Source of the DNA: Phytoseiulus persimilis
Taxonomy: Eukaryota > Arthropoda > Arachnida > Mesostigmata > Phytoseiidae
DNA length: 64,000 nucleotides
NCBI GenBank assembly: GCA_037576195.1
Contig: CM075101.1
Span: 21,452,001-21,516,000 of the forward strand
Direction of reading: 5' to 3'
Of the stretch, positions 22,583-57,901 are shown one piece after another. The translations under genes were made by a program, and so were the position numbers. Each line of letters starts with the position of its first letter. Position 1 is the first letter of the stretch. Below the pieces are notes generated by a model, which did not search any database, had not been told where the DNA came from, and saw only the letters and a list, made by a program, of their open reading frames with translations.

Positions 22583-22612
22583 CTAAGCGAGGTATTTCTG
22601 TTACAGGTAAGC
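22583..22612 (+). other. Candidate recursive splice (ratchet) site, CAG|GTAAGC
   Basis: An acceptor and a donor are fused with no exon between them. A CTAAG branchpoint-like motif (22583-22587) is followed by the pyrimidine-rich GGTATTTCTGTTACAG ending at 22606, then a consensus donor GTAAGC from 22607. Recursive sites in long arthropod introns have this layout: after the upstream exon joins here, the donor is remade and spliced again. The sequence match is strong. That it is used, and that a plus-strand transcript crosses here, is inference. An ordinary acceptor or a chance match are the alternatives. Confidence 0.45.
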
Positions 22613-23907
22613 TGGCATTCCACGATCGAGCGTCCGAGGAACCGAAACGCTGATGAAACTCCGAGGAAGGAGAGACGAGACACATTCTCGCCGTCAAATG
22701 GTGTAACAATATGGTTTTTATCATAGTTTCGATGTTCGTTCAAATGATTTATCCAGTCGGTGGTGGACTCGATGAGCAAATCGATTCCGTTCGGGAGCGA
22801 CATGGCAACGATTCGCCGAGAAAGGGTCCCGGTTCGCGCTGCTCTCAGTCGCCATTGTCTGGCCATCAATCCATGGCTTCTTTGTTCTGGTTTCAAAAGC
22901 TCCGTTTTTGTGAAGGTTTTTTGGGGACTCAAGAAGTTGGCGAATCAAGCAGCTATTTGATACCCGTCATGATCAAGCTCACCTAATAAAATCGGTTTTC
23001 GGAGCCGGCTGGGAACCGCTCGGTGGACTTCGGGGAGAACCGGCAAAACATGAAGGGAGAGAACTCGGGTCGGAATAGTTTTGAAATGTCCCCGAGGATC
23101 TCCGGTATACTCCGCACGTCCGTTCGTTCGTTTGTCTGTCTCTATGTCTGTTGATTCCCTCTTACGATGTTTGGCGCCTTCCGCTCGTTAGGAGGGCTGT
23201 TCGTTCTCATCTGAAGCTCAATATTGGATGTACGCCCTATGTCAGAAGTCCTGAACTCAGTGATTTCTGTCGCTGGAACGAAATGAATGTCCTTGTGAGA
23301 CGATCGATTTTATTTTGTTCGTTTCATCTCATCCCTCCCTGTGCTTGTATTTCAACGACCCGCTCGCCTCACCCACGACCATGTGCTCGTTGAATCCGAG
23401 TTTCAGGTTCCTCACCGGGAGAGACTCACTGGTTTAAACGGTAGCCGATCGCCTCTCCGGTTCATGTCGATGACCTGAGCGTTACCATCGCGCTCCCGCG
23501 TCTCGTGCTCTGCCTACTCGCCACCCGTCGTTCACCCAGCGGAGTGGAGTTCCACTCAAAGGGGAAACAAGGAGACCTTTTTTCTTAGTCGGCCGTCCCT
23601 GCTCTAGAACGGGCTAACCAGAGGGCCGGCCGCATGCTCTTATGCTTGACTAGTCGCGTCCACAGCGACCTGTCATCGGAAAAATCTCCCGCTTGCTAAC
23701 GAAGGTAATGAGCTTTCGAAAATAGGAAACGGCCAGGTTTCCGTACGGCTTTCGGACCTCGCGGTAAGCTACGGTTCTGTTGAGAACTGCGGCAGCCGAC
23801 TCAGAAGCGAGCTTTGTTTGAAGCCGGGATCGTAAAACAGCTGTTCGACAAGTTGCTCGCCGCCGTCATGATGCATTCCTCTCCATTAAGACAGTAGTCA
23901 TCTGTTC

Positions 23908-23932
23908 TTTTTTTCCTTCTCGCCGGTCTCAG
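23908..23932 (+). other. Acceptor-like pyrimidine tract ending in CAG
   Basis: TTTTTTTCCTTCTCGCCGGTCTCAG ends at 23932. The frame after it stays open for about 60 codons in one phase, but the translation is not recognisable. A second, shorter acceptor-like tract (CCTTTTTTTCTTAG, ending at 23588) lies just upstream. These could be exon starts or random pyrimidine tracts. Confidence 0.2.
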
Positions 23933-24651
23933 CCTATGTCGTCGAGTACAATCTATAGTTTTGTCGACACTTGTCCCGCGTCTCAACACTATGGTCATGC
24001 AGTCTTGGAGAACGGTTCCTTTCTCCGTCCACGTCGCCATCATCGCGACGATGACCGGAACATTGTGAGACTCGCGTCGTTGTTGTTCATTCCTTCCTAC
24101 CTTACAACGATCTGAAAACAAGTCGAACATCACAACCGAACGTTGTCAACGAATGAATCAAACGCACTCGTCTTCGGCCGCGGATGGGCCGCGCGCCGAA
24201 ATAAGGATTGCTTTTTCCAAGCGCAGTGACGAGCTAAGAGGGAGAGGATATGCTCCGATCGTTTCCTCTCCATGGGGAACCGGATCGTTGCGAACGGATC
24301 GCAAGTTCGACGAAAACCGGAGTTCATGAGTAGCTTCGTCCACGAAAGTTCCCCATTCCGCACTTCCCCTGATTATTTCCTCGAATCCAGAGTCTAGGTG
24401 GAGTTCCCTGCATCCGGGACTTGGAGCGCGTGCGGGTCCCCGCGCGTCTTTGAACAAGCCTCGATGTAGACTCGGAGGCCCGGGTAGTTTGATTCGGAGT
24501 TGCTCTGGTGAACGGTTGGAAACACTGAGAAACTCACTCGCTTACTTATGAGGACCCATGCGAGCAAATGAAAGAACTGCTCACTACCACCAGCACAGAC
24601 GGCGTTCGTTGCCACCGCCAGCCATTTTGGAAAGTCCGTCTTGTGGTTGAA

Positions 24652-24690
24652 CAACCCGCGAACCAGTTCGTTTGCCAAACTGGTTGGTTG
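24652..24690. repeat. Interrupted hairpin, 8 + 5 bp stem
   Basis: CAACC then AACCAGTT on the left pair with AACTGGTT then GGTTG on the right, around a 9-base loop. A CGCG bulge lies on the left arm. Function unknown. Confidence 0.55.
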
Positions 24691-27600
24691 AGCACGGTGT
24701 GAAAAAGTCGCAAGCTGAACGAAGGACTTGGTTTCGGTTAGAGGCATCAATTCGAATGTGCGAGCTCTGATGCGAGCTAGGCGTATGCACAAACCGACAT
24801 ATGCACGCGCACATCAGTGGCAAAGGCAGCAAACTTTAGCTGCGGCCAGAGGCTCCGAGGGAAAAGGCTCCGTGCGAGGGTGCCGTTGAGGAACTCCACC
24901 GCCCTGGCGTAGGAGGGCCTTGGGCTGTCGCTGTGTATTAGACCCCCCGTTTCCTATTCCACTTCCCGCTGTCGCCCCCGCCCGCCGTCGCTGTTATAAG
25001 CGGTAAACGGACTTCCTCGCCACTGGCAAGCCCGATTCGATGTCGGCGAAAGTTGCCCCTCTGACAAAGTGCACGTACGAAATGAGGCGGGAGCCTGCCG
25101 GCCCAATGCCGCGCCGGTCACCGACGGACCGATCCCAGGTCGGGTTTTTAGATGAGTCGGTGGGGAGACGAGGGAGGACAACGGTTCGTTGAAAAATGGA
25201 ACACGCCTGATGACAGAGTGGGTGGATGCTGGCCCTGAGAGTTAAGAGCGCCACGCGGAAAGAAGGCGCTGTAATCCGAGGAGTTGTACGAGTTAGCCTT
25301 ATCCGATGTCGAGGAATTCCGAGCGGAGCCGTGAACGGCGCTGGCAATCGACGCGGCGAAAGTGGCAAGAAGTTGGCCTGCTCGTAAGTCAGTTAGCAAC
25401 CGAGACTCGGAACGAAGTTACAGATATCTCAGCGAATAATTCGTGACCGTGGCCCCGATCCGCCGTTTCACTCTGGCGGACCGTATTCAAACTTCAATTG
25501 CTAGCGCGGGTACCTGACCGTTCTCTCCGTAAATGAAGGGTTGAGAATCGGGCTAGCGAACCGGCGGACGCACCGCTGAAAAATCCTTCTTCGGAAAAAT
25601 TTCTTCATGCTCGAGCAGAACCGAGCCGAGATTTTATCTGCGAGTTTCTCGTTTCGTTCTCCGTCATTATCGTCGAGCTCTAAGTCGGTCGCTTGGCCAG
25701 TTCTTCGAACGTTCGTTCGTTAGAGCCGCTTCGAAGACGAATTTCACGAGCAGGAGGAGATAATCTCGCCAGATATCGCGATCCCCGGGGAAACGATATG
25801 GCCTGGAAAACGGTCAAACGAACTCCGCTGTTTTCCGATGAAGCGTTTCGTCCTATCGTTTGAGCGACGGCTTCACGTCGTTCCGTGGAAGGCCACTCTC
25901 GATTTCGTGTGTTGTCCACTTCCGACCGAAAACTCGGGATTCCGGAACGCGGCGCGATATTTTTATTGCTCTTCCTTGTTCACAGTTTGAACAGGGAGAA
26001 AAAGTGCTTGTGTCGCCGGGAGAAGCCCGAGAACGGAATATGCAGGGCTCGAGCGCGGCGTCACAACAGCATCTCGAACGGTTCCGCTTTGATAATTTCG
26101 TTTAGCTAGCAGCGAAGGAGAAGCATCAAGCGAGAGAGATCACGACCGACTCGAAGGAACCAGGAAGACATGTCGAGGGACATATTTGTCGAGTCGATTT
26201 TAGCCAGCGTCCAGATGCTCTCCGCCAGGTGAAAGTCAGGTTTGCTTGCTTCGCTCTTCTCTAGGCCAGAAAGCGTTTCTCGTCATCTTTTGACATTTCC
26301 ATTCGAAGATTGGTTGCCTTCCAGATGCTCACCCGTCTGTTTTCTCCCCATTCGGTCCTCGGGTGTGATTCGCCCTATTCCACACAGGTCCACCCGCTGA
26401 TGGGAATCTTTCGGCAAAAATTTGTCATCAAGCGCGTTCTCCGCAGCGCTTGTTACTCGAGCTTCTAGAAATCTTCGAGCAGGCGATGAGCTTGCAATGA
26501 GCTCCGTTCGATGACGGGATCTGCTCTGTGGAGTCAACACTCCAACACGATCTCTCGCGTGTAAGGTAGCGACATCCTCGTTCCGAGAAAAAATCGAGGC
26601 CGCGAAATATAATGCTCCTGACGTCACCGTTCGTGACGAATTCCTGAGCTGACCCTCATCGAGATATGAGCACCGCTTATGCGGAAGTGGGGTTGTTTCA
26701 AAAGCGAGCCGTCGGTTCCGAGCGATTGAGATCGAAATTCTGAGAAAACTGAAACATGAGCTTCAAACGGACGAACGCGAGGCGGGTGCCATGCTCCCGC
26801 ACGCTGCAACCTAGGTAGAAAGTATCCGCGCCTGCGAGAACGGGGAGTGGGATGGATGCGCTCCCGTTGCTGTTATTCGAGAGCGCTGGGCAGCGAACGA
26901 CGTCATTGAAATCTTCCTCAAATTCAATTCACTCCCAACGAGAGAAAGTGCGCGGCTTGGACCCTCTTAGGCGACTCTCTGACCGAAGGACGTCTTCGCT
27001 GCTCAGTGTCCTGCTCGGTCAGAGCGGCGGTGGCATCCTGAAAGACTCTTTCGCTGCCGAGGAGGCCCAGGAACGCGATCTTTCAAGAAGAGTTCGCGCT
27101 TCTGTCTGAGTGTCCTCTGGATCCGTGTCGACGAATACATTACATCAGAGCTCCCGAAAGCGCTGCAGGTCGGTCGATCGGCTCCGGTCACGACTGTCTC
27201 CTATTCTTCCTCCGTCCCAGTGGAAACTCTTTCCCTTCGGGACGAGGCCCCAGGCCGGTCGGGGGGTTCTGGAGTCTTTTCCCGGCCCGTGATTCGACCT
27301 GTCGGGATATCTTTCCAGTCGTCAACCAGGCGATGAATAATCACCGTTCCGAGCCGAAGGATACGTGCAATTAGAGCGACTACGGCGCTCACATAGAACG
27401 GGCGGGCGTCGGGCGAGGTTGGGCTGGCGGCTCGTGTTTGAGATTGTTAGCGGATCATGGTTGCGGCCCGAATCACGTTCGGCAAGTCTGTCATGCGTCG
27501 AAGTTTTTCCGGAGCCGCGCGCTAAGTGCAAAACAATCGGCCGCCGCGCACGGCCAGACCATCCGAAGGAGAAGTCGATATTAGGGCCACGTTAGGCAAT

Positions 27601-28270
27601 ACCGTGTTCCAATCGCTCGTTCCGCGCCGACGCCTGATACCTCGAACCCGCCGCCCGAGAGCTCGCTTCCCTCGGGGGCGGAGTTGAATTTCACAAGAGC
27701 GTATTCCTGAGAAAAACAGGCAGAGGCTCGCGGGTCGTTCTGTTTTGTAAGTTTCAAACGATTTCGTGGTGGAGTTATTGCAAACCTCCGACTCGGGCTT
27801 TGATTCGGGGCTTAGCGATGACAAAGGAGAACGCAGCCGCAATTCAAGTTCGATTCCGAACAAAATGAACGAAGATTCCCGCTTCCCACCGATAGACGTC
27901 GCTCCTGCAGTCAAACAACGATGGACAACCTCTGCCGCCCCCGCTGCTGCCGTTTTCGCTCCCTGCGTGCTCGTCGTCGTCGATATTAACTTTTTTTTTC
28001 GTTCGCTCGATCGTCGTATGTACGCATGAGCCCCTAGCAAGAAAGTGAGCATCCAACCTAACAGCGGAAAGCATCCTCGTCGTCATGAAGCGGCAGCGGC
28101 AACATCTCGGATCGGGACGCCGATGACGAGACGTAGGCTGACGACGAGAGAAAGAAGGAACGCGGGGAGAAGTTTCCTTAACGTTTTAGTTGCGCGCGAC
28201 AAATCCGTCTCAAGCCCCACTTGGGCTCGTGTGTCTGCCCCGTTCCCGCCGAGGAAGTGTGGGGGGATGT

Positions 28271-28284
28271 GGGGGGGGGGGGGG
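28271..28284. repeat. Poly-G run (14)
   Basis: Fourteen G, preceded by a G6 run at 28261-28266. Confidence 0.9.
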
Positions 28285-29287
28285 TTCTTCTTCGCGTGGT
28301 TCATCTGTTGCGGATATGCTCGTCTGGCGGTACTGCGATGGGCGGCTCGGTGGGGTGGGTTGCTTCGATAGCTTGGAGCGAGGTTTTTCGCATTCAGAAA
28401 ACGCCCGCCGCGGTTCCGGCGGGGCGGCAGCCAGAGCGCAAGCGGCTAAAGCGAGGAACTTCATCGCCGGGAGCCGACAGCGACAACCTCTCGAAGTGGT
28501 GGCGAGCTGATGCATTTTTGATCGCAGCCGCCAAGAATGAATCGGAGAATGTACATGAGCGATATCTCGTGAGCCAGCGAGGGCAAGAGAGATTGTTTAG
28601 AATAACAAACCGTCGCCAAATCTCAAGGGGAATCGAACTCACCGCCAGCCTAGACAACCCCCGGCTGACGGCGGCGCACAAACAAACTGGTAACACGAGA
28701 CGATGCGAGTCTCGCGTTCAGAATAAGAAACCGTTCTTAGAGAGGAACGTTAGCGATCTCACAACGCTCCTCGAGACGGAATCAGAATTCGCTTTCGGGA
28801 TATTTCAAACGGAATCCCGCAAAACTCGACACGAAAACAGCTCTACTCGGATGCGACAGCGGAAGGAGCATCCGCGACTTTAAGATGGATGCGGGTCGTC
28901 GTCGACACCGTCGCTACGTCTGTCGATTCGATGCCAACGGCTCTTTGGTTTTGGCGAGAATTGTCCTTTATTGAGGTTCATGAAGAAGCCGCAAATGACC
29001 ACGGAGCCCGTTTCGAAGACAATATTCCGCTCAGTCAACGGAACTGATTGCTACAATTTGTCTCGACGACACCGGGGGCTTCCGGACTTCATACATTCCG
29101 ATGGCGGCGGTGACGATTGAAACGGGAATTTTCAGCGTGAAAGCTGTGATTCGCTCTCATGAGATTTATTCCGGATTCGGGATGAATACCCAGAGGGGAA
29201 GCGAGCCATTATCGTCAACGGCTTCACTTCTTTCCAAAAACTCGAATTTCCGAACGATCACGGATTTTCCTGCCGGCAGAGCACTGA

Positions 29288-29304
29288 CCCCCCCCCCCCC
29301 CCCC
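29288..29304. repeat. Poly-C run (17)
   Basis: Seventeen C, the longest homopolymer of C or G in the window. Its exact length may be uncertain in the assembly. Confidence 0.9.
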
Positions 29305-31034
29305 AACCTCCAGCTTCCCGAAATGGCCCCGTTGATCTTGCGAGTTCGGGTCTGCTCCTCGGTTGAACTCGAAACCGTCGAGGAGACAACAGCCCGGACT
29401 CCACGATATATTATGGGAACCCGTTCTCGACTCCCTTGAGCGACGAAGATTGTTTTGACCGTCGATGACCGCGTCAGAGGCTCGTCTATGTGGAAAGCCG
29501 CAAAACATTGGCTCACAGAGTGAAAACGGTGGGTGGCTGTGAAGCGACGGCCATCACGACCCGTGACCTAATGGTTTGAGCAGGGCAGAACAGAGATATT
29601 CCTTATCGTCCCGCGAGCCTGAGTCAGCTGCTCATCGAGCGAGGGGCAGACGTGGCGAGGTTAGGTTAGGTTTGGGGCCGGAGTGGACATCCGCGAGCCT
29701 TCATTCTTCAGCGGAACGCGTCAACACACCGCCATATGATGGAGACGGAATTTCGGCAAGGCCGGCGAAGTCACTCATCTCAAAATCTTGGAACCGCGCC
29801 CCTGGAAGTCGAGACGACTCTTCGATCATTCCTTCTCAACGGTTCATCAGTGCTCGAGCGCGATTAGAATTAACACTGCGTCGATCGCTGTTTTGTCTAC
29901 CCGGGTTCAAGCGCTGGAAGAACTCGATGCTTCAGGACTGGCGGGGAGTTTGCGAGAGAAGCACACGCCGACACCATTTATCGATTCTTCCGTATTGGAA
30001 GTTCCGTTGAATATCTTGCTATTCTTTCGCTTCCGACGAATTTCCTCCCATAGCTTACGCGATCGGTAGGCGCTAGGAGTGGTAGCGCTGAAAGCAAACC
30101 GCCGCCGCGCGGGCCAAATCATCCGATTATTTGGTCCCTGCATTGAGAACAGCGGAACTCGTCAATACGGTTGGCGGCGAGGCGGCCGCGCGAACGGGTG
30201 GAGATTTGTTCTCTGTCGTCGTCGTAGGCTGCGGGATATTTTTGATGAGTTCGAGATGCACTTCGCCCCGCTACCTCCGACTGTACAAACAAACGAACGC
30301 AGGCCGAGGCGCTGGCGAGGATGTCAAGACGCGAGAACGTTGGCGAAAAATTCAATACCGAATGAGCGAGCGAGCGTTATTTAGCGGGCCAACGTCAGCA
30401 CGTTGGGCCAGCTACTGCTGCCACCTTCATGGAAGTACGCTCGCGAGGTTGCGCGCGCACGAGGCTTCGCTCTTGTCTTGGCAATCAAATCCGTTGTTGT
30501 CTACATTAATTCCGGATCGAACGACTCCTCTCGTCACACGACAGCAGCTGTCTCTGTCCCTCAGCAGGGTCCCTCAGCTGGCAAGCCGTGGGTCTACGTG
30601 ACCGACAGCGTTTCTCGAGGCGTTTTGTCCCAAGTACGCTAATCTCAACCGCCCAAGAAGATAAACTCGTGCATTTTTGTCCTCGAGCAGACGAGTCGCA
30701 GACGGGAGGATTAACGAATCTCTATTACGTCGGAGAACGAATTGCTGAATCGAGTTCTTCGGGATACTGGGCAAGTCTAGGCGCACGTGATGTGAACGAG
30801 GCACTTTTCCACCGTTCTGTAGTGGCTTGAGTCCAGATCCAATGTGAGAATACCGGCCTCGATTTTCGGCTGCGAGGGGATAATGAGTGATGAATCGAGT
30901 TCTGAATGATGCCCAGGACTCCCGATCGATTGGAGAATCGGAGGCAAGTGTCACAGCCGCCGGAAACGGGGCTCCCCACAAAGCTTTCGGCTCAATCGGT
31001 TGCTGAGTGATGGCTGTTTGAAGGCTCAGTATGG

Positions 31035-31088
31035 TTTTTTTTTTTTTTTTTTACCTCCCTTCCCTCTCTCTCTCTCTCTCTGTCTCAG
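31035..31088 (+). other. Very long pyrimidine tract ending in CAG, strong acceptor-like site
   Basis: A run of 18 T (31035-31052) and a CT repeat (31063-31080) form about 50 bases that are nearly all pyrimidine, ending in TGTCTCAG at 31088. This is the strongest 3' splice-site-like tract I found. The next bases are GTCGCT, a poor donor, so it is not a good recursive site. The following frame is open for about 50 codons and rich in Lys/Arg, but resembles no known family. A microsatellite without function is equally possible. Confidence 0.3.
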
Positions 31089-32537
31089 GTCGCTTCCCGC
31101 GGGCGGTTCTGTTTCGGAAAAAGAGCATAACAGCTTGCAAGTGACACCTGCGAAACCTGAGAACAGGAACAAAAAAGATGCCCGCAAGAAACGAGGCCGC
31201 AGAGAATGGAGAATAACGCGTGTTGGGAGAGCTGGGGGGAGATTCCAATGATTTGTTCGCGTTTGAGACTCTGGGCCGTTATTGACTGCTGCTCCTGGTT
31301 CTACTCCTCAACTGCGCCACTCATTCACACGTCTTCCGTCGTCGCAGGTCGCCTGCGATGGTGGTTCGCGTTCCGTGCGGGAATTCTTCTCCGGTCTTTT
31401 TCAGTGCTTCTCTCCCTCTATCCCCCCATCTTCCCCGGGGAGGCTCCCGTGTTCTTTGTTGTCCCCGAGACAAAGCCAATCCTTCGCGAGCCCTCACAAG
31501 AGCGTTTTGCCTGCCTGAGCTCGTCGTGTGTCAGCCGAAGGAGGTTTGACGGAGCTCTCCACGGAACAGTCGAGCAGCAGACAGAATCGTCCGCGGCTCA
31601 GGAGGGACCGTCCTCGCAGACGTGCCTCCGGAGTGGGAGTCGGGGAATCAAGAGAGCCGAGAGAAAGGATAAACATAAATATTGTGCCGTATTGCAGCGT
31701 CTGGCACGACTGGGCTCGTCGTAGGCTCTGTCCCCACCGTTCGAAGAAAGAAGAAAAAATCAGACGGAGCGCCTGTTGAAGACGGAGGCGAAAGGTGCCG
31801 TGCCGTCGCTCGGAGAAATATCTCTATCCGTTATTCCCGCGGGTGCGCTCAACAAGCTTGGAACATTGACTCGTTAGATTCCATAGTGGGTTCGAGTTGT
31901 AAATATTGTATTTGCACTTCCTTTTCCATCCGCTAGCTCCATGTTGCTGCTGCTCCCCCGCCCGGCTCTCCTCTCTCGCTGTGGCTTGGCGTTTCCCGCG
32001 ACTGCGTCCTACTTGGAGCGCGTTTGAACTGGGTGGAGAGCCGATACCTTAACCCGGTGGTCCGCTCGTCCCTCGCTCATGGAGTCTGAATGTTCGTTTG
32101 AATTTTTAATGATACCATCTCCGCACAAGCGTTTGTGAACACTCGCGACACTATAAGAAGAACGGCGGCGTGCCAGCATGGTATATGCATGAGTTCACAG
32201 CGTCGCCCGCATACGTATGTGCATACTAGAGCACGCGCACACTCAGCGGCGGGTGGGCGCTCGATGCCCACTCCGTCGCGGGAAGCGCGGGGAGAGTTCC
32301 GCGGCGGGTCATTTGATTTTCGCATATTTCGCAGACGAAGTAATTGATGAATGCTCGCCCGCGTGCTTGCGTGCAAGCATGCATCTTCGGCGTATCCGTG
32401 CCAATCTCCGGCGCCGGTCGCTCTCCGCTTCGCCTATGCCATCGGCGGCCAGACCGGATGTAATTGGCTTTCGGATGTAATATGCAATCGAATTTCTCGC
32501 CGAGGTTCTCAAATCATATCCCGTTCAGAGTCGGCGG

Positions 32538-32572
32538 ATCCGAGCTCCGCGATCGGCATCGCGGAGGCGGAT
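32538..32572. repeat. 35-base hairpin with 9-bp perfect inner stem
   Basis: CTCCGCGAT-CGGC-ATCGCGGAG (32545-32566) is a perfect stem with a 4-base loop. A further ATCCG/CGGAT pairing outside it gives 14 bp with one small asymmetric bulge. Confidence 0.7.
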
Positions 32573-32940
32573 TGTTGACGGTCGTCGAAAGTTATTCGGG
32601 GATCGACTCGGATATAAATCTTCGATCTGTGCAACGTTTCCCGGATCAGAACGTCGCGGTCAAAGAGACAGGATCGGGGAATGGCTTCCGATTCGGCGAT
32701 GATTCCTCCCATGACACGGAGCCGATGCCGAGGAGAGAAGCGTCTCTTGGAAAAGCAGATTGACAGAGTCATGAGGAATGACGGGCAGCCCGCGTGGAAA
32801 ACCCGCGCATGAACAATGCCGCGGTAATCAAATCGCTATTTCTCTCAGTCGTCGACTAAGACGTCTCCATCGTCAAGGCGGTTTCTGTCGTCTTTCGATC
32901 CGTCGGTCGTCATTATTGCCTCTGCTTTGAACGTACACTT

Positions 32941-32972
32941 CCTTTCTCGTCTTGTGGTCGCTGCAGGTACGC
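32941..32972 (+). other. Weaker acceptor-donor fusion, CAG|GTACGC
   Basis: A pyrimidine-rich tract CCTTTCTCGTCTTGTGGTCG leads to CTGCAG ending at 32966, followed by GTACGC. The acceptor half is fair. The donor half has C at +4, so it is weaker than the three main candidates. It may be an ordinary acceptor or chance. Confidence 0.2.
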
Positions 32973-34665
32973 CTCTAATAGTTCGGGTCATCGCACTGAA
33001 GTCGTTTCAGTGCTGCTCCGTTCTCATTGGGCCCTCTGACTCCGAAACCAGTCCGGCTCGAGAGCAAGCGCGCGCGCAATATGGCGTAACGACGAATGTT
33101 TGGTTCTTCTTCAATATTAGTTACGTGCGTTATACGCGGCACGCCCCTACCGCGGCGGCGACGCCGGCTAACTTCGCTACGTGGGTCACATTCAAGCAGT
33201 CGTCAGTCCGAGAAACAGCGGGCTTTACGAACGAGAGAATCGTTCATGTCGGCGGCGGCGTACGAGATGATCGGTCGTGCAAACGAACCCAGCAAGGTTC
33301 TGAAGACGTCCGCTCCCAACAGCCCGCTCCACCAATCGGTCACCGCGAATTGGACGCGAGCGACGTCCGAACCCGTTCAGAGCTCTCTGAATGACCGTTC
33401 ACCTCCGGAATCAGCACCAGGGCTCCCCGTTCGCAGTTAGCCCTTCCGAAGATTCGGGCCGGAGATGCTCCACAAGATACGATCGTGGTGCTCAACACAC
33501 TTCTTGACAGGCTGACAGCAGCTCCGTTCTTCCCTGGCTCGGTCGCGCGGTGGGTTCGCTCCACTCGTTCGGTGGGTGGTTCTCGGGATAAACTTCTAAT
33601 AGACGGTGATCGTTCTCTCGGCAGAAGAAAGAAACTGAAAAAATCAGGTCTGTTTGTAGAGCGTAGGAGTGCCGGCTCCACATCGCCTGAACCGACGTAT
33701 CACTGCGGCTGACTGGGTCTTCGCGAGCATTCATCTTCTTTAAAACCGTTAGTGAAATGAAGAAGAAACAGCCGAACTTCAGTGTTAATAGCTCCCCCCC
33801 GGCACTCACGGCTACAAACACCGCCGTTAACACAATTGAGTTCTGAAAGAAGAGAAGCGCGATGGATACGTTGCTCTTGACCGGGCGTCGATCCAAAGCG
33901 TGCCTGCCGCTCTGCTCGAGCCGATGCTCCTCGTGGCCAGAAACAAAGATTCTAGAGCCTCCTCGTGGAAGTAGCATATGTAAACAATAATAACAACGCC
34001 GGCTTCGGACCGGCAAGTGGATGGACGAACGGGCCAGAGAGGGCCCGAACCGGTCAACACAAGGAGAGTTACCAGTGCGTGATGTGAATGAAATGCGTGC
34101 CTGATGCCAGCCCGTTGGTCTGCCTGCCTGTGGTTCACCCATTCCTCCCCTTCCCTCCGTCCGCTTGTGCTGATTCTGCCTCCTCCACGAGAAGAAGCAG
34201 CGGTAGGAAGTTCTGTAACCCAAATGACCAACGAACTAAGTAAGTTGATTTCTGACTTCCACCGCTCGCTGCGAGGGCTCGCTCAAAACGTATCAAGCTC
34301 AACGGTCAACGTGACCAACAGCTCGTTCGCGAGCGAGCTGCAGCTTCTGGAGCAATGGATTTCCATGAAAATGTAATGAAGCGGCGTGAACAACGCCACG
34401 GATCGACACAGTTCCATTGAACCGATGTAGGCGAAACCGGCTCGATAAACAGGAGCTCCTTGCGCTCAAATGGCGAGTGAGTGCGTGCGTAGCTCCCGTT
34501 CTGTATGAGCAGAAGCATCTGATATCGAACGGCCACAACCCTCAGGTGCTTGTAGTTTCCGAGGATGATATCGATGGCGACGCACCAGATTCTGGAAAAG
34601 TGCGCTATTGAGTGAGGTCCTGTCGACTGGGCAGAACATCAAGGGGAGAAAATGTCAGGGATGGA

Positions 34666-46349: not shown

Positions 46350-46369
46350 TCTCTCTCTCGCTCTCTCTC
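46350..46369. repeat. Interrupted (CT)n repeat
   Basis: Two CTCTCTCTCG blocks in tandem. Confidence 0.8.
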
Positions 46370-46552
46370 GGGGAGAACGAGAATATCACACTCGAGTTGC
46401 AGAGCCGAAGAAGATTATAGTCCTCTCGCTGCCGCCGTTGCTTTCGTTCTTTTGCACCCACGTCGATTCTATCCCTGCTCGGTGGGCAGACGGTCCTGCT
46501 CGGATGGGTGGGTTGCCGAGCTGCTCGGTGTACTCCTTTAGGGAAACGAGCT

Positions 46553-47497
46553 CTAACCCCAGCGGCAGTTGTGCTGCGTCGGCGCTTCTGCGAAGCATGA
46601 GCAGAAAGATAAATGAAGTTGACAATATGTGCCGCTACCGCTGTTGGAAAAGGAAGAACTGACGGACGGAAGGAAGGACGGACGGACGGACGGACAGATA
46701 GAGCTACCAAGCAAGTAAGCGACAGACGAAGTAGGAACGGACGTACGAGCACAACCTGCAATGGACGGCGGGAGCAACGAACGGTGGACTACTATTACCA
46801 CGTTGGTACGCAAGGCGTCGACGACAATGGCCACGAGGAGAGCAACCCAAATGGACTTCGTTGTCCATCCTCGTTCCGAACGCGAGTGCTGTGCCGCAGC
46901 CGCCAGTCGTGCGCGAGTGGACCTCGAGTAGGAGCACTTCAATAACAAGCGGAAACCTCCAGAGGTCCAGGAGCTCATTTCCCTCAAGTTCTCGGACCTT
47001 GAATTTGAAAGGGACGGCCGTGCTGGAGATGGGCGCAAAGCACAAGGGTCCTGTGCGAAAACACTCTCCCTGGACAATACTTCCGGAGAATTTTGTGTTG
47101 CGACGGTTACACCGAGTTGAGTTTGACGCTCTGATCTCAACATTCGATGAAGGGTCTTGTTGCTGATGCTCCCGCGTTTCCACCATTGACTTGGGATTCG
47201 AGGTCTGTCTGCATGCTCTTGGAGGCTCGGCGATTTTTTGGCCTCGATGTTGAATGGCATTCTGCTCTCCCGGGTTTTCCACCTTTCCTGCTCATCCATG
47301 GGATGCTGCGGTGCATATCGGCTGCCTCCCGAAGCAGATCGGGTCCGGCTCCTCGCATAAAAAGTTCGATACCTTCTTTCGACCTGGGTCTGTCCCGCTT
47401 TTTTCGACTCCATGTTCTGCAGCAGACAGAAGAGCGACCTGAGCGGCGGCAAGCGGGGACAAAAGACGATGCTCCGTCTTAGAGGCACTTCTACCAC
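46553..47497 (-). other. Longest open frame outside Nol6 (314 codons), probably not a gene
   Basis: A 314-codon minus-strand frame runs here, but a second minus-strand frame is open for 192 codons in the same stretch and several plus-strand frames are open too. The translation is Arg/Ser-rich, its C-terminal part is made from a GGAC-type microsatellite, and I recognise no domain. Few stops in all frames point to base composition rather than coding. A real exon hidden in one frame cannot be excluded. Confidence 0.2.
46661..46696. repeat. (GGAC/GGAA)n repeat
   Basis: GACGGACGGAAGGAAGGACG then GACGGACGGACGGACA. It supplies the Pro/Ser/Val-rich end of the 314-codon minus frame. A short relative is at 53571-53585. 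Confidence 0.85.
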
Positions 47498-48046
47498 CGG
47501 CAGTTGGAGAGGAGGAACACTCGAACGGAATTTTGCTCACTTACGAGTTGTCTCTTTCTTGTTGTTGTTGTCGCTGTGAGCGAGCGAGATTCCTTCTCCC
47601 CTCCCCTAAGACGTGTCGGGAATCCCGAGAGAATGGACAGAAATTGTGAATATCGTCCCAAGTGAAGGGGATCCCTTCTCGGTATTCGTGAGTGCTCCCC
47701 GAATCCTGGTGCACTCGCGTGGGCCGCACCCGCATCGGGCAAACAACTAACAGGAAGCATCGGAAAGGGCCACAGTTCAAAAGCGGTCTGCACTTGCTCA
47801 GCGCAAGGACAACTCCGATCGTAGCGACGCAGAGGGATCGAAAATGGAGGAGCAGAGAGAACGTTTTTTTCTCTTGTTCTCGGTGGGCTGTCGATGCTGC
47901 TTCTTCGTTTCCGGGCAATGCCATTTCGAGCGATGATCGCACATCGGAAATAACTGCTTAAGACGCGGTGTCGGTTGGTGGAACGCCATCTTTTTTTTTT
48001 AACTTCCTCCACAGAGCGCCCACTTCCTCCCACCCGCTCTTTTCTT

Positions 48047-48059
48047 CCCCCCCCCCCCC
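48047..48059. repeat. Poly-C run (13)
   Basis: Thirteen C within a longer pyrimidine-rich stretch that also holds a T run just upstream (47991-48000). Confidence 0.9.
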
Positions 48060-51000
48060 TTCCGTCCCCCAGAAAACGAAAGCAAGAACAAAATCAACAA
48101 AAACTCTCGAAGAACCTACTTGCTCCAACAAAACCTCGACTCGATGTTCAATTAGGAAGAATGAGTTCAAACGTAGCATTGGGATCTTATCCGGTGCTTG
48201 CTCGCAACCAACTTTGCCGCCTTCGAATTGATTTCGGTAAACACCGCGATGCGTTTCCACGAAACGGTTGCGTCCGCCACTGAGACTGCACTGGAAGAGG
48301 CACCGGACGTCGCAGTTAAAACCTTCGTCTAGGCGGCCTACCCCTAGGAGAGGTATGAATCTTGAACGATTCCTGGACCCAAACTGTGGGAAGGTGTTCC
48401 GAAGCTCTGCGCGGGAAACCTTCCAATCGGGAGACCAGTGGTCTCGGAACGAGTGGCTCTCCTAGAGATCGTTCGGACCTTGATTCTGTTTCGTCAGTTC
48501 ATTTCGAATCGCAGGCGTTCCTTGCATGCAAACAAACATGCAGCTCGAGCCCTGTGGTTGACTTTTCCCTCGCTCTGAATACCCACTTCGCGTTTCAGCC
48601 CTGGTTGGAGCTCCACCCATGGCTATGGGCTTGGACGACGCGATAGGGCGAGGGGTGTATCCGAAAGGAGGCACGCTCTCAACGAAAGCAATTCTGTGGC
48701 AAACTTCAAAACGGGCCCATGGAGTCAGATTCTGCAAATGGCTCCAGATACGCACCGTGTGCCTTCTCGACCTTGTCGGAAATCAGGGGAGAGTGTTGCC
48801 ATCGTCTGAGGAAGAGCATCGGTGGGCAGAACTGCGAAATTCCTCAGAGCTGGGAAATACAAATTCGGGAACGCTTGTGTCTCGCTTTCCTTCGAACATT
48901 GTTCAGGGCGCGAGCTGTTCATCGCGGCACCCCTCTTGCCATGTAGCCCTTGCGCGAGCTCGCCTTGTTCGTTCCCTTGCGACCACGCACGGCGGGCGAG
49001 GCGTCGACGATGCCGACAGCAGTAGTGTGCGTGAGCTGTTTACGTTTGTTCGTTGAGTTCACCCTTTTCGAACGTCGGCCGACAGAGAAAGCTGCCAGAG
49101 TTCCGAGCGAATGTTGCACAGCCAACAGAAGCTCCGCTGGGGGTGCGCGAGTGAACGCGCGCGCCTCGAGTTCCTCAGTTCGGGACTGCGAAATGCTCAC
49201 CGCTGTGGCTGTGCCAGTTGTAGCCCCGATCGTGCACTTTGTTCAGCCCCCGCCGTCTCAGAGATAGGAAGAATCAATGGCAGAAATTGAAGCCTCGGCT
49301 AAAACCCTTCTCTCACCATGGGCCGTGCCATCGTTGCTGCCAACCCGGGCAAAAGGAAACGACGAACTAAAAGGCGAACAGAAGGAGAAACGGAAGAAAA
49401 AACCCTTGCCAACAGAAGTAGCTACTTTTCCCCGAAGAAAACGGATGCGTAGAACCTCTCGAGTCAATTGAGAGTGCTGTCTTTGGGTCACTGTACCAAC
49501 CCCCCTGCCCCAACTTGCCCGGCTGTCGTTCCTTCAACCACCCGGCCTCACTGCCGGTTCGTCCGCCGGCCCTTCTGTCAAGCCGTACCGTTTGCGAGTC
49601 CCTTTCTGCGGGTCTTCTATCCGCTTTGTTTGATGATTGCTTGCTCAGTGGGTGTTGGTTGCTGTTGTTGTCGTTGTCGTCATCTTCAGGCCGCGGCGGC
49701 AGTGAAGAAAACGAGCGAGAGGGGTAGAAGGGGACAGTGAGATTCTCAGTGGGGCTCTTCTCCAACGGCGTGTCCTGCCGGCTCTCGCGTCGACCCGAAC
49801 GACGTCGTGCGGAAGCTGGCTGGTGGCATCGCAAGCCGGAATTCTTTGGCACAGCTCTTCTCGTTTCTTGAGCTCTGTTTGCGAGCAAGCCGGTCAGGCA
49901 GCAGTCTGGCGATAGCGGTGAAGAGAGAGTTGAAGTAGGAGTTCGCTTCGCTGCTCCCCTGCTTCACTTTTCGAGCTTTCTTTCGTTGCTTTCAGCTCGC
50001 TTATGGTTCCCCGTCGCGGGACGCCAGCAGGCCGCGAATTCACAAGACGAGGTCTTCGTTATCGATTCCTTCACTCGCGTCCCTTCCAGGGCATCGGTTA
50101 GCCTCGATCCTGGACAAACCTTTGGAATCGTTTTCGGCATCAGTGCTCGAACCCGTCCTCATTGTCGCGGTACGGATTCGAGCCCGCATCACCTTCCCTC
50201 GTTCCTCACTTTAATTCGCACTCAGAGAACTCGCGACAAAACGGGAGCGGCGGCAGCTGAGCGAGGGGAAAATGTCGGAAGCAACGCTTGATTGAAAACT
50301 CAGATTGCGGTCGGATTTACTCCTCGACGGGCCTTCGGTGGCACAGGAGGCTCGCTCGGCTGGACGATCTGTCGGTCGTCTGGGGCGGTGCCAGAAAATC
50401 GAGTTATTAGAGTATAATTGATAGACATCACAAAAATGCTTCCGAAAAGGACGAAGTGAAGGAGTCGACGTTTTTAGTACGGTTCGGTACCGCTTGCCCG
50501 CTCGCCCGTTCGAGCACTCGACCTTCCGACCAGCCGAGCGGGCCCCGTTCGGTCTGACGCCTCGGGGCGTACCGCAGTTGGAGAACCGTCGTCGTTCCAT
50601 TCTAATTTAAGGAAACCAGTGCGTCCCCTCTCCTCTCTATAGCTAACTGGGCGACGACTTCCGGTAGTCGTCTTTAACAAGCAAACGATGAATTTCTTGG
50701 AGAACGAACCAGATCCTCAGCGGTCCGAACACACGTCTCGCGCTTCGAGTCCGCATCTTCTTCTAAAGCTTGCCTGCATCATCATCCGCCATGAGTAATT
50801 GCTTCTGAGCACCTACCCCGGAGAACAGATGATTTCTCGGATCATGAATAAGCTGTAAAATGCGAATTTGAATTAGTGGTCAGGTTTCGGGCTAACGGTA
50901 TTCGGACCAATGGCTCTCGGCCGATCGAGCGGATTCCAACTCATGTCAAAGTGAACAGGGACCGCATTCGGCTTCCCTCCACCTGGTTCGCCGCTGTCGG

Positions 51001-51366
51001 AGTCCGATGAGCGAGAGCAAGCTCGCGCTCCTGCATCGAACTCTTGATTGGTCGTCGATTTTCGCCCGAGGGTTTGCGAAACGGAAACCGACTATGAAAT
51101 TCTGTCCACGCGGACAAACCTGAGAAACGAGCTGGCGATCGAGCGAACGGTGGGAGATAACTCGCATGCCGCCGACTCGAGTCCGCCGGCTAGGCTGTGT
51201 ATATCCGCGAAAAACGTCTGCCCGCGGTGATCTGGATCCAGTGAAAAAGTAAGCGAACGCCAAACGCACTCTTGCCACTTAACGTGCATACGCCCGAAAA
51301 GCATGGAACGAAGAAGAAAAAAACATGACTGTCGCTGTTGGCACAATTGGCCCGACAAACCAGACC

Positions 51367-51381
51367 GGCAGGCAGGCAGGC
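51367..51381. repeat. (GGCA)n repeat
   Basis: Nearly four units of GGCA. Confidence 0.75.
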
Positions 51382-52200
51382 TTGGAGTGGACGCAGCCCC
51401 GGATCCAACTAGTTTACTGAACACCGCGCTTGCAAAAAAGACTACCGAAGTCCACTAGGCGACGACAGGTGCAGGAATTCGTTCGGACGATTATCGCCGC
51501 GATAGGTGCTAGCCTCCAGCTGTCTGCCCGATTGGCCCGAACATGGGCTCGTTCGCATGTTGGGACGGCTGTTCAATGTAACTCCCGAGAAGATGAGCTC
51601 AGGCGAGACTCGATGACGGGAAACTCGGGAGTTGAACTTCCGCGAGTCAGTTTCGAGAGCCGTGGGCTCCGATATAACTCTGTCGCTTGGTCAGTTGGCT
51701 GTCTAACGAAGCAAAAGACTATGAAATTGAATCGTCGTCCCGGTGGCCGTCGTCGTGGTTGGCGTCGTTCCTCAGCCAACTCCTTCGACTCCACTCCTTG
51801 GGCCGCTTCACCGCACGCTTGGCTTGTTGGTGGCTGATAGGCTGCTTTGTTGGGCGGCTCACTTGTTCAATTTATTCGTCAAGCCACTGTCTGACTTTCT
51901 ATCGATTTCATTGATTGTCGTTGGCGTGGCAGCGTCGAGCCGAAGCTTCTACCTAGGTGCCTGGCAAGACTGGAGGCAAGCGAGCCGCTCGGTCGATCGG
52001 TTGGCCAACAAGGAGGCAAGCAGGAAGCAATCTGGCCATTTCCAAACGAAGTGAAGCGAGCGAGCGAACAGAGGCCCCCAGGTGGCTCTAAAGTGCTTTG
52101 TGGTTCGTTCGCAAGCGGTCTTTGCTCATCCCCAAGTGGTCGTACCATGTATCTTCCCGATCCAGTAGCGGCGGCGGCAGAGGCAACCATCCACTGAAAT

Positions 52201-52212
52201 GGGGGGGGGGGG
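52201..52212. repeat. Poly-G run (12)
   Basis: Twelve G following GAAAT. Confidence 0.9.
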
Positions 52213-53570
52213 ACTGACGAGCAGACGGTTGGTTGGTTTGTCTGTCTTCCCCCTTGCCCCTCTCGTCCTCCGGCTCGAGGAGGGAGGCAAGTTAGACGAT
52301 CATCTGCCTGACTAACTGACGGACGGACTCGCTCGTTTGCTTGGCGCCTCGACTCACTTGCGCGCTTTGTCTCTCGGTCGAGCCCCTTCGAACTGAGATA
52401 GCCCACGGCAAGAGAAATAGAGGAGGAGCTATCCCGCCAGCCAACTAACTAGCCAGGCAACCAACCGGTCAAGCAGGAGGATCAGAGCTCAGAATATACT
52501 TTGAGAGGGATGAACAAAGGGTGGGCGGTTGGTCAAGTGGTCTCCGTCCTTCCGCCCTCTCCGGACTCGAACATCGTAGCCGAGCTCCACTTTTTCTGCC
52601 GTTTTCCCTGAGTCGTACCCTCTTCCGCCATCACAACTGCCACTGCTGCGAAGCCCACGACGACGACTACTTCGTTACGAAGGCCGGCTCCAACACCCCG
52701 CTGTAGGCTGGTTCGCAGGACTTGAGTATTTAACGAGCTTCCTCCGAGCTTTTGCGACGCGCCGTAGATCGGGGCCAGCCCGTTTCTTCATCTGAGATGA
52801 ATGATCCAAGCGAACAGGACGGACACGAGTACAAACCGCCCGGTCAGCCTGCCAATGAAAGAACTGCCCCACGACGAGCTTCCAAACGGAGTGGTGCGGG
52901 TGGCGGCAGCGGATTCAGAGAGGAGATTTATACTTGGGGTTTCACCTGCTTCCGTCTCCAAATGTTTGACGACGACTCTCATTATAGCGATGGACTTTTC
53001 TCTGATTAGTACGACTTTGACAGCCTTGTGGCGACCGGCAAGTCAGTCCTTTGAGGAGACGGGTCAGCTGTGGACGTCGGCCGTCGACTCGTCGAATGGA
53101 CACAGCAGAGAGCATTGATGAGAGCACCTCCAAATCAGCGGATGCAGGACTCCGGGAGGACTGCAGCTTGTTCCTCGAGTGTAAGCCTCGTTGAGCAGCG
53201 TAATCCCTTCGAAGACTCTTCGGAAGAAAAGCTCTTACGTGATCGCCTGTTCTGATGTTGCATAACGTGCCGTGGAGCGAGCGGTTTCACCGTTGAAATT
53301 CTTCGGTGGGATTTTGACGTCGGTTGTCTGCGTCAGGAATCCAGCACGATGCAGGCGTGCGTTCGTTGAGCTGTCGCTCCGAGTCTAGCTAAGTTGCTCA
53401 AGGGCCCGGCCAGTCAGTCAGGAGCTCGGCTCCCTCATTTGTTGAGAGGGAAACGAAGGAACTTGATTATGAGAACCTGACTGAAAGTGTTAATAAAATA
53501 TAAGACAAACAGACAGCACCAGGAGCCTCGTTGGTGGACAGATAGTGAGCGAGTCGCTGACTCACTGACT

Positions 53571-53585
53571 GACGGACGGACGGAC
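53571..53585. repeat. (GACG)n repeat
   Basis: GACGGACGGACGGAC, same motif as at 46661-46696. Confidence 0.8.
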
Positions 53586-53810
53586 CCGGCGACAGTCTGT
53601 CCGGCCGCTTTCTTGTTTCTTCCGTAATCATTAGCCGCACGCCAGCGTACATATTTCACTGTCTCCTTCCTCGGTCTGTCATTTGGCGTCCCTCCTTCCG
53701 CCCTTCGTCGGGTGATTGTACTGCAGTGAAGTAACAACAACGGCGTGGAGGATAAGAACGTCGGCAGAGCCCGAATAACTCGTAGGTGTTATTCCATCCA
53801 GTGGGGAACA

Positions 53811-53854
53811 TCCCTCTCTCTCCCGCCCCTCCTCCCCCTCTCTCTCTCCCTCCC
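53811..53854. repeat. CT-rich low-complexity tract
   Basis: About 44 bases of nearly pure C and T. On the plus strand the first AG lies well beyond it (GGGAG after CCGTTTCC), so it is a poor acceptor. Confidence 0.75.
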
Positions 53855-53995
53855 GTTTCCGGGAGTTTCGGGATACTGAGCGGACTATGACGGCAAACAT
53901 AGGAGGGAATTCGCCCAAATCAGCTGACTCTGAATCAGCGAAAAGACACGGATCGTGCTTCGGCGATGCCTGGGAACCACCCTCGAAAAAAGCCA

Positions 53996-54013
53996 CTCAC
54001 CCACCCACCCACG
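53996..54013. repeat. (CCAC)n repeat
   Basis: CACTCACCCACCCACCCACG. Confidence 0.75.
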
Positions 54014-55710
54014 CACTCAGCGATTCGATCAGGAAAATCGACTGAGAGTACATATGTAGTATTAGTGTCCGAGCCTCGCACTTCCCTTCGGCTCTAGCCA
54101 CGATCGTTGCCGCCTGCCTTCTTCGAACCTGGGGCAACTTCCGGTTCCGGTGGACGGCGGAGAGCGCGTGCGATGTTTGATTCCAGTCCCCGGTTTCCCG
54201 GCTTTCTTATTCCAGGCAGACAGCGCAGACCAGAGGCATTGCGCCGGCTGCTCGGTCGGTCGTTCCGACTCTCCGACCGTCGGTCGATCGAGCCAGCCGA
54301 CGGGTTCGACGTTCGCTCAAACTCATTGTAAACTCTTTCCTCGCTCAGTTTTTCCGTTTCTCCTCGTACCCTCTATCTTGTGCTACACGCTTCCCCCCGG
54401 TATCCGCGGAGATCGTTCTGAGTGAGTTCCTGTTTCAGGAAACTTTGGAGTTTTTCTCCTCGGTCATCCTCTTTTCAATTGCAATATCTCTCGGATTGAG
54501 TGCACGACCATTTGAAGCGATTTGTTCAGAACATCGGGGTTTCCGGCTTCTTTGGAATCGATGGTCACGCTAATTGTATTCATCCAATCAGGAGCCCGTG
54601 GGCCGAATGTTCCGACAGAGCGTTTGCGCCGCGGCCGAGGCAGTATCAGAACATTGAAAGCCCGGGGAAACGAGCCAACGAAGTGGGAAAAATCGGGCTC
54701 CTCGAAAACATCTCCGACACGACGACAGCGTTCAGAGATGAGGTGAGCGAGCCAGCCAGCCGGTATCGTGTCGGTTTTCGTCCGCCGCCGACAATCGTTC
54801 TCGGCGATCCGATCCGTCAACATGCATTGTGAGATGGGTTCAACGCTCGTTCAACTGAAGCCACAGAAATCGTGGAGAATTATATTTATTCGTGCAGATG
54901 GGACGCTCTACAGAACGAGGACCATGGTGACGGCACTGACGAAACGTTCGCGACGACAACAAAGTACAACATGAACGACTTGTCAGTGATCGGGTCACAG
55001 GGGTTGGCGTCGAACCAGCTAGTTCTCCTGATTCCGGCCGTTTGCTCCTCTCTGTTCTGGTCCTGGTGTTCCACCCATGCCCTTCTCTGGTGGCTGCCCA
55101 TCCATCGTTGTGGCCAAGAGTTCGGAATCAAGTGTCCCATTCATGGCTGTTTGAGCGCTAAATGAAGAATGGAAGCGAATCGCGTGTGATCCCCATGAGA
55201 GCAAGCGGGGAGCGAGCCTTATAGCTCGGCCATCATGGTCGATTGGCGGTCGCAACGTTCCAAAACTGTACTTTCCAATGGAGAGTCGGCGAAAGTGACT
55301 GGGAGACGTGAACTCCTCAATCCGAGTGGCAAGCTGGAATCGTGCGGGCCTTTTGCCGGAATACTCGATGTGCACTTTTCTGCAGAAGAGTTCTCGCCGC
55401 AGTTCCGTCGTCCATCCTCTCCCCTGTCCGCAGCCCCCCAGTGGGATGCTCTTCAAATTACAGAATTCGGGCAAGACTGTTCGTTGCAGCGGATGATGTT
55501 GGTTGCATTAAGGTGTGCGGCGCGAGGGAGCCACATTTCGCACTCGCGAACAGCTGCAGTACGCCACACGCGGAGACCTTCGTTCCGTGCAACGGGGAGG
55601 ACAAGGCGAGCTTGTTTTCTGGCTGGTTGTCTTTATCAGCGCATGCCATTGTCTCGTTTCGCTTCTGTTGTCCCCCGGCGTTGTACATAGCTAGCTTACT
55701 TGCTTGCTTG

Positions 55711-55813
55711 TGCTGTTGTTGCTGTCGTCGACGACGTTGTCGGTGCCGTTGTCGTTGGCGTCGCTGCCGTTGTCGTCGTCGTTGTTGTCGTCGTTGTTGG
55801 TGGTGGTGGTGGT
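55711..55813. repeat. Long imperfect GTT/GTC/GGT trinucleotide repeat
   Basis: About 103 bases of GTT, GTC, GCT, GCC and finally GGT triplets. Open in nearly all frames, giving runs of Cys/Arg/Trp, Val or Gln/Arg. It is the longest simple repeat here. Confidence 0.85.
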
Positions 55814-57870
55814 ATACAAGCCATAGCGAGCAGACCGGGAGCCGCGTGGGGGCCAGGGCCATACCATTTTTCAACCATTCACTACCACACGCTATCACCG
55901 ATCATCATTTCGCCGGGCTGAGTCGGCTCAGCCGGTCGGCCAGTGAGCTCGCCGCGCGGGAAACGGAGCCATCTTCCCAACTCAGGACGGCCGAAGCGGC
56001 AGTGAGAGAGAGAGACAGCGGCGACGGAACGCAGTGGGGTGGGGGTGGCTGAGGGGAGGAGCAAGGCACTGGGGAGTCGTGATCACCGTTGAGATCGTCA
56101 GACGTCGGAGCTGGCGTTCAACCATTGCGAATATCAGCTGCAGCCGCAGAGCACGACCTCCCCCTCTACCGGTGCGGAGTCTTTTATGATTCGCCCTCCT
56201 GTCCTCACGCGGTCATGGCTCGTGTCAGTGCCATCGCTCCTCCAACCGCTCTTCCACGTACCACATCCACGAGAATCACAGACATGGAGCTTTCCGACGG
56301 AGGTCCTGCTTTCGCAGTTTCGTGGATTTGAATCTCGTTGGCCTTGTTCATGGGAGGGAACTCCGTGCTTTGTACGACAACACAACCTCAGTTGCATCGA
56401 CTTCGATGTCAATGATGACAGTTCTCATGGGAGCTCCTAGAAATGAGTCATCGTTCATCTACGGCGTCTGTAGTGAACCTCGCTGAAAACTCTTCGATGG
56501 ATGGGATAACTTGCCTCTCCGTGGCAAAGTCCAGAGTTTCGGATTTTTTGGGATTTTCTCGGGACGGGTGACCTCGAAACTGGGTTGCGTATGTATCAGA
56601 CTGAGGGGAACTGAACACAACAGCAATAGCGAATCTGCTCCGAACCGCTGGATCTCGCAGGAGCCTATGATACATTGAGCTTATTAGATTCCCAGAAGAA
56701 AAATTGCTTTCCGATTCCTCTTTTGGTTTACCTCATCCACGATTCGCTCTGTTTTCACCACTTCGCATCGCTCCAACGGCAGCATTTGATAGCCTCCGGA
56801 TCTCTATCGAGCAACCTGTAGAAAACAACTCCTCCCCGATCACCAGGAGAGAGAGGAGATCCGCTTCGAGTAGGACAGACCCTCTTCGAAGGCCGTAGGC
56901 CGCCACCACACGATGAAAAATAGGAACCTTCACGCGGTGCGCGGCAGTTGGGTTGCGGATCCTTTCTCAGTGAGGCTTGAGCGAATTTCGAAGAGGTTTG
57001 TGGTTGCGAAATCACAACGGCCGCAGGCAGACGGAGGATCGGGAGATGGGAAAGACAGGCTCGCACGCAGTTCTGGTTCGCCATGTTTGAAACATGGCGC
57101 TGGCGGGATGGGGAGCTAAGTGAACGTTGGTGGGAATGATCGCCGTCGTTGTCGGCGACGTCTCGGTTGCTAGCTACTCCAAGTACGGGTGGTTTGAGGA
57201 GGGTCAGAGAGACGGGAGCGAGCTGTTATACAACTCTATTACAAGCTTCTTCTCTCGCCGACCATAATGGCTCCTTGGATCACGCAACGACTCGGGTGGG
57301 GAGGTTGGAGCCGAAAGCTGCTTCTGCTTTTGGTCCTGCTTCCGAGTCGGGCGTCGCTCGTAGCCGCTGTTACGGCAATTGCTACTAGCAAGGCTACTGC
57401 CACCGACGCCACGAATCATCTAAGCGTATTTCCCCTCTTCCCAGCGTTGGACAGTCAAAGAGCGGGGAAACGGAGAAATCCTACGAGCGATCCATAGTAA
57501 GCCCCCGTACAGAGAGGGGACCCGTTTGCTAAGCGAATGGGGAAGACGGGGGGCGTAGGAGGCGGACCGCGCGGCGACAGGGAGTACGAACGAAGACAGC
57601 GAGATGAAGGGCAGGCCCCGACGAAGGAGGCCACTTGCCACATGGCGCTCGAATTCCGTGATAGATGACGCAATAAATTTTCTGAGCCTACGAAGGATTT
57701 ACTTTCATCTATGTACTCAACAAGAACGCTGCGGCGTCAAAGACAAATCCTCTGCTCTCGTTTTTCCTCGATTTCATTAGAACCTTAGTGGCGCCGGTTG
57801 CGGTCTATGTGGAGTGCGGTGAACAAGATTAAGGTGGTTGAGCTAAACAGCGCGGGGTCCAGGGGCGAAA

Positions 57871-57901
57871 TTGATTGTTTACGTTTCTCTTACAGGTGAG
57901 T
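57871..57901 (+). other. Candidate recursive splice (ratchet) site, CAG|GTGAGT
   Basis: This is the best match in the window. TTGAT (57871-57875) is a plausible branchpoint about 21 bases before the AG. A TTTACGTTTCTCTTACAG tract ends at 57895 and is joined directly to the full donor consensus GTGAGT at 57896-57901. It lies about 780 bases beyond the 3' end of the Nol6 coding region, on the opposite strand. If used, a plus-strand intron would run on towards or past Nol6. Confidence 0.5.

Follow-up and report, generated by a model that had tools for sequence, protein, structure and literature searches.

The window, the whole stretch of 64,000 nucleotides that was analysed, belongs to a contig of 54.7 Mb in a 181 Mb eukaryotic genome, with a G+C content of 54% and a CpG observed/expected ratio of 1.18. 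The sequence taken in also covered 100 kb on each side and another 20 kb at the right, and positions at the locus are given in window coordinates. Coding content was assessed with a codon-periodic scan trained on frames of neighbouring genes; its cut-off for reporting a segment is 14 bits, and exons that are short or noncoding can therefore be missed. The left flank is gene-dense up to -8,412, where its last frame, an RNA methyltransferase gene that we take to be METTL16-like, comes to an end (Table 1). It is followed by an exon-poor stretch of ~168 kb (about -8.4 to +159.5 kb), and the sole strong coding segment that the scan identifies between -8.4 and 159.3 kb is the minus-strand NOL6/Nrap gene. 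The remaining segments scanned in this stretch reach at most 18 bits, compared with 235–378 bits for the three genes at its edges and inside it. The initial annotation had described about 58 kb with no recognisable exon, and in the coding scan this holds up to 58,683, where the NOL6 frame starts. An Rfam gathering scan of the window matched none of 4227 families, the tandem repeats in the window are short arrays only, and TTAGG is absent from both 2-kb ends of contig 1. The left flank also contains a minus-strand transposase fragment, presumably mariner-type, at ~ -32.5 to -31.8 kb (Transposase_1, E 7e-32).

NOL6 is a single uninterrupted frame, unlike some neighbouring genes, in which introns seem to be present; its introns may have been lost, or the gene may be an old retrocopy. 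The exon-poor stretch is closed on the right by an open frame with a BTB domain. Going downstream from the fused splice-site motifs described below, no plus-strand coding exon is convincing before this one. The BTB exon likely starts at 159,490, in the context ...TTTCGATTGCAG/CGCCATG (here and below a slash marks the splice junction), which places the ATG at 159,494, shortly past a CAG. An ATG right behind the exon start is expected if the 5' UTR exons lie far upstream. The pyrimidine tract of the putative acceptor is weak. The coding scan reveals no other convincing plus-strand coding segment between -8.4 and 159 kb, although exons that are short or noncoding may lie unnoticed in this range. 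Of the plus-strand exons that the initial annotation expected on either side of a giant intron, the downstream candidate is the BTB exon, and the upstream first exon was not found in the coding scan of the exon-poor stretch.

Table 1. Genes, fused splice-site motifs and proposed intron at the locus, in window coordinates; scores are joint acceptor and donor matrix scores.
Feature	Position	Strand	Description
RNA methyltransferase frame, last of left flank	-10,013..-8,412	-	Methyltransf_10, E 8e-66
In-window part of proposed giant intron, left of NOL6	1..58683	+	No convincing exon in coding scan
Putative ratchet site 1	22583..22612	+	Score 13.8; CTAA at 22583-22586 (-24); junction CAG/GTAAGC before 22607
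Putative ratchet site 2	36474..36507	+	Score 15.4; CTAA at 36474-36477 (-28), pyrimidine-rich stretch, CAG/GTGAGA before 36502
Putative ratchet site 3, best of the region	57871..57901	+	Score 20.2; CAG/GTGAGT before 57896
NOL6/Nrap gene	58684..62091	-	One open frame, 1136 codons; six Nrap Pfam domains, E 5e-17 to 2e-36
Fused site outside window	72,337	+	Score 17.1
Fused site outside window	84,343	+	Score 17.4
Fused site outside window	102,865	+	Score 14.9
Fused site outside window	111,081	+	Score 16.6
Open frame with BTB domain	159,317-162,211	+	BTB E 2.9e-22; zinc-finger match under Pfam cut-off

Fused acceptor and donor motifs in the exon-poor stretch

Within the window, the motif CAG/GTRAG, in which an acceptor directly abuts a donor, occurs on the plus strand at 22604, 36499, 57893 and 61742 (first base of CAG) and on the minus strand at 44825 and 8581. 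The first three plus-strand matches are the sites on which the initial annotation had based its proposal, and they are present as it described. Its two minus-strand matches are present as well and score lower, at 11.4 (8585) and 5.8 (44829). The plus-strand match at 61742, missing from that annotation, scores 10.1 and lies antisense inside NOL6. Each score combines a generic acceptor matrix (-20 to -1) with a donor matrix (+1 to +6), and all 767 AGGT positions in -8.4 to 159.5 kb (370 plus, 397 minus) were scored in this way. The seven top-scoring positions are all on the plus strand, and the best minus-strand position reaches 12.7. The scan of both strands, run alongside simulated sequence, therefore adds four plus-strand sites to the original three and finds no minus-strand site as good; these four lie outside the window, so the initial annotation could not have included them.

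Successive sites are separated by 13.9, 21.4, 14.4, 12.0, 18.5 and 8.2 kb, with up to 31 kb of exon-poor sequence ahead of the first site and 48 kb behind the last. Two of the seven have weak donors, GTAATG and GTAAAA. An origin of the seven sites as copies of a repeat was rejected, as their flanks (600 bases each way) have no detectable similarity.

Three comparisons bear on whether so many sites could arise by chance. First, at a cut of 13.7, set by the weakest of the three sites in the initial annotation, seven plus-strand and no minus-strand sites are observed in the 168 kb, versus 0.9–1.2 per strand in sequences simulated with order-2 and order-4 Markov models (60 each). The highest simulated count at this cut is five with both strands pooled, the best simulated site scores 20.3, and the Poisson probability of seven plus-strand sites is 4e-5 to 2e-4. 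Second, permutation of donor scores among AGGT sites at the same cut gives P 0.007 on the plus strand and 1.0 on the minus strand; at a cut of 12 the plus-strand value is 0.16, which is not significant. Third, the flanks contain six sites of at least 13.7 in ~232 strand-kb, at least one of which resembles the donor of an ordinary coding exon. The abutment of acceptor and donor consensus appears better than chance, a result that depends on a high score cut.

The same dependence applies to the strand bias. Plus- and minus-strand counts are 22 and 22 at a cut of 8, 9 and 12 at 10, 8 and 7 at 11, and 8 and 2 at 12, becoming 7 and 0 at 13, 6 and 0 at 14, and 4 and 0 at 16. The bias is therefore seen only above a score of ~12, and at 10 the minus strand holds more sites than the plus strand. 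From 13 upward the top fused sites appear confined to one strand, the same strand as the downstream BTB exon. The individual components are balanced: acceptor-only matches of at least 8 number 149 on the plus and 148 on the minus strand, and GTRAGT occurs 47 and 48 times; AGGTRAG occurs 16 and 10 times. A strand skew in pyrimidines was rejected as the cause of the bias, pyrimidine content being balanced between the strands (50.3%).

A branch-point-like word accompanies most of the seven sites. CTAA begins at -24, -25 or -28 in five of them, at bases outside the scoring matrix, compared with 4% for -24 to -28 in the 727 AGGT sites that rank lower (P 2e-6); the word was picked after looking at the site contexts, among five words tested. 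Four words related to CTAA give P values of 0.0002 to 0.016. Site 3 is without CTAA and has a weak branch-like TTGAT at 57871 (YTRAY at -25). CTAA is found in two of the seven best minus-strand sites and in none of six flank sites scoring at least 13, and when weaker sites are admitted (at least 4) it accompanies five on the plus and three on the minus strand. CTAA at -21 to -25 is also present in three of 13 script-inferred introns of neighbouring genes, and the word thus fits the species.

Fused sites across the genome

A strict fused pattern, Y8-N-YAG/GTRAGT, has 64 matches in the genome, compared with 21 for a control with the same core behind eight purines. Read backwards, the strict pattern has 73 matches, and the raw count of 64 is therefore unimpressive by itself. 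The purine pattern read backwards has 70, which indicates that matches to the forward core are few in general, with about three times as many of them behind pyrimidines as behind purines. A looser set, in which the last base is not T, comprises 137 matches versus 226 backwards.

Neighbours no more than 25 kb apart form six pairs among the 64 strict sites, every one of them same-strand, versus 0.57 expected under uniform placement on four contigs of approximate length; the purine control has no such pair, and the backward control has one, with identical letters. In a combined set of 143 sites, limited to C1, C2 and part of C3, eight same-strand pairs and one opposite-strand pair lie within 30 kb (4.5 expected in all), and 12 and six, respectively, within 60 kb. 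A union of 175 sites has 13 same-strand pairs and one opposite-strand pair within 25 kb, and 19 versus seven within 60 kb. This union includes 61 of the 64 strict sites (three on small contigs are left out), 96 from the first 100 of the 137 looser matches (four near-identical copies at C3:24.77 Mb are left out) and 43 of the 44 matches to a pattern requiring CTAA. The corresponding control pattern with AATC has 25 matches. CTAA is in place in 16 of the 64 strict sites, compared with two for AATC. Together with the five of seven at the locus, selected post hoc, these counts suggest that a branch-point-like word stands at acceptor distance from such sites.

Several same-strand groups of fused sites stand out. 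On the plus strand of C4, at 17147244-17177112, three strict sites are 13 and 17 kb apart; four homeodomain matches, presumably zfh2-like, cluster on the same strand 160–190 kb downstream of them (C4:17.338-17.344 Mb). In the 20 kb past the third site, the best plus-strand position is 17,195,736, at 14.4, and the best minus-strand position scores 11.0; the former may be an ordinary exon edge, as the stretch holds open frames of up to 370 codons. Further same-strand clusters are located at C2:17909091-17954841 (minus), C2:45700253-45716312 (minus), C3:10662581-10710884 (plus), C1:14226625-14240943 (minus) and C4:21736084-21758745 (minus). By their sequence pattern, the same-strand clusters on C1 to C4 are candidates for giant recursively spliced introns. 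At C3:24774179-24789119 on the minus strand, at least four copies of one fused-site sequence recur at ~5 kb spacing; this repeat was excluded from the counts.

Relative to homeobox exons within 200 kb (70 of 95 homeobox places used), fused sites have no clear orientation preference: 11 are upstream on the same strand, eight upstream on the opposite strand, five downstream on the same strand and six downstream on the opposite strand, and three of the 11 belong to one cluster. Few sites lie within 200 kb of BTB exons (23 of 74 places used), with corresponding counts of three, one, one and two.

A proposed recursively spliced giant intron

These observations suggest that the seven sites are probably ratchet points for recursive splicing, and that the intron in which they lie, on the plus strand and ~140–168 kb long, belongs to a BTB zinc-finger-type gene. 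The dependence of the strand bias on a high score cut slightly reduces our confidence in this reading. The initial annotation had proposed one very long plus-strand intron. This idea is supported and withstood the refuting test that the annotation had named, a matrix scan of both strands against simulated sequence together with a search for genes, but the extent would be ~140–168 kb and not 58 kb, and the intron would hold a gene on the minus strand. Since the scan found no upstream first exon, a single intron is a proposal. The proposed intron would extend to ~159.5 kb, and its start may lie left of the window.

Each site would first serve as an acceptor, using a branch point (often CTAA, ~24–28 nt upstream), a pyrimidine tract and the CAG. 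The upstream exon would then be joined to the GTRAG past the site, remaking a donor that could splice to the next site, so that the intron would be removed piecewise in segments of ~14, 21, 14, 12, 19 and 8 kb. NOL6, on the opposite strand, is probably nested antisense inside the intron and would sit within one of these segments. In this model we infer that transcription crosses the region, that a first exon lies upstream, that the BTB exon has the acceptor assigned to it, and that splicing in fact proceeds in steps.

Three other explanations deserve consideration. It is plausible, but unlikely, that the ratchet points are real and belong to a different plus-strand transcript, such as a long noncoding RNA or the 5' intron of another gene. 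The missing first exon, the weak tract of the supposed BTB acceptor and a last segment that, at 48 kb, exceeds the others would all fit such a host; however, a plus-strand transcript would meet no convincing coding exon before the BTB exon, whose ATG lies just past a CAG, and no competing plus-strand coding segment emerged from the scan, short or noncoding ones aside. We regard it as decidedly unlikely that intergenic regulatory DNA makes up the exon-poor stretch and that random matches in it happen to share a strand. Although single sites this good arise in simulation, six occur in the flanks and the strand bias is absent at lower scores, a chance origin would have to accommodate seven sites where about one is expected, a 7:0 division at high score, CTAA at a nearly fixed distance in five of the seven, and same-strand clustering with CTAA enrichment elsewhere in the genome. 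That the sites border short cassette exons or RS-exons in 5' UTR isoforms, and are not pure ratchets, is very improbable: some fly ratchet points do have includable RS-exons, according to the available text of PMC8605326 and PMC6110457, but here donors are not enriched within 200 nt downstream (best donor at +15 to +200, mean 3.6 at the seven sites versus a background of 3.9 at 2000 random places), which leaves an exon-defined RS-exon variant unsupported.

Comparison with known ratchet systems

Read as a ratcheting intron of the BTB gene, the locus is a further arthropod case of a mechanism already known from flies and, by computation, from other insects and a sea urchin. Among the papers listed by a literature search on mites or arthropods, no title or abstract opening concerns recursive splicing there, most subscription papers being outside the scope of the search. 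We tentatively suggest a broader possibility, that ratchet recursive splicing operates genome-wide in a non-insect arthropod, perhaps to remove giant 5' introns from transcripts of regulatory genes; at this locus it would proceed across an intron containing an independently transcribed, uninterrupted antisense housekeeping gene. A placement among parasitiform mites is weakly suggested by arginine kinase: the best match among single-domain PDB chains is 7re6, a tick enzyme (PMC12387690), by a small margin (608.7 bits, next 600.4), while two chains with two domains have higher total scores. At this locus a giant intron and the way it runs were suggested by nothing more than sequence, which also directed us to a candidate coding exon ~95 kb beyond the edge of the window. 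Should RNA data confirm this, ratchet points could help to decide which genes the exon-poor stretches of new arthropod genomes belong to, the age of recursive splicing within arthropods would become testable, and so would the question of how a ratcheting transcript copes with an active antisense gene inside its intron.

The closest parallel is provided by the ratchet points of Drosophila, which likewise combine the fused (Y)nNCAG/GTRAGT motif with a sense-strand position in a very long intron. In the portions of PMC6110457 available, recursive segments of the fly usually measure ~9–15 kb, and recursively spliced fly introns are enriched among first introns; the segments proposed here are of similar size, 8–21 kb. 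Table 2 of PMC2773006, from a partial text, gives 2.2 fused sites on the sense strand and 0.10 on the other strand per 100 kb in flies, compared with seven and none per 168 kb here, under a different scoring. Unlike the fly ratchet points, the sites here include two with weak donors, and one proposed segment would hold a nested antisense gene. As far as the same partial text extends, a sense-strand enrichment of fused sites in large introns was computed for fruit fly, mosquito, bee, beetle and sea urchin, and no such enrichment was obtained for vertebrates by that method. The mosquito, bee, beetle and sea urchin RP-sites of that study resemble the present sites in their computed strand bias in long introns; they come from other species, whereas the present case consists of one locus and genome-wide clustering, obtained without gene annotation. 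Human recursive sites with RS-exons, as described in the available part of PMC6110457, likewise have a fused acceptor and donor in long introns, but exon definition there needs a downstream donor, of which there is no sign at the seven sites.
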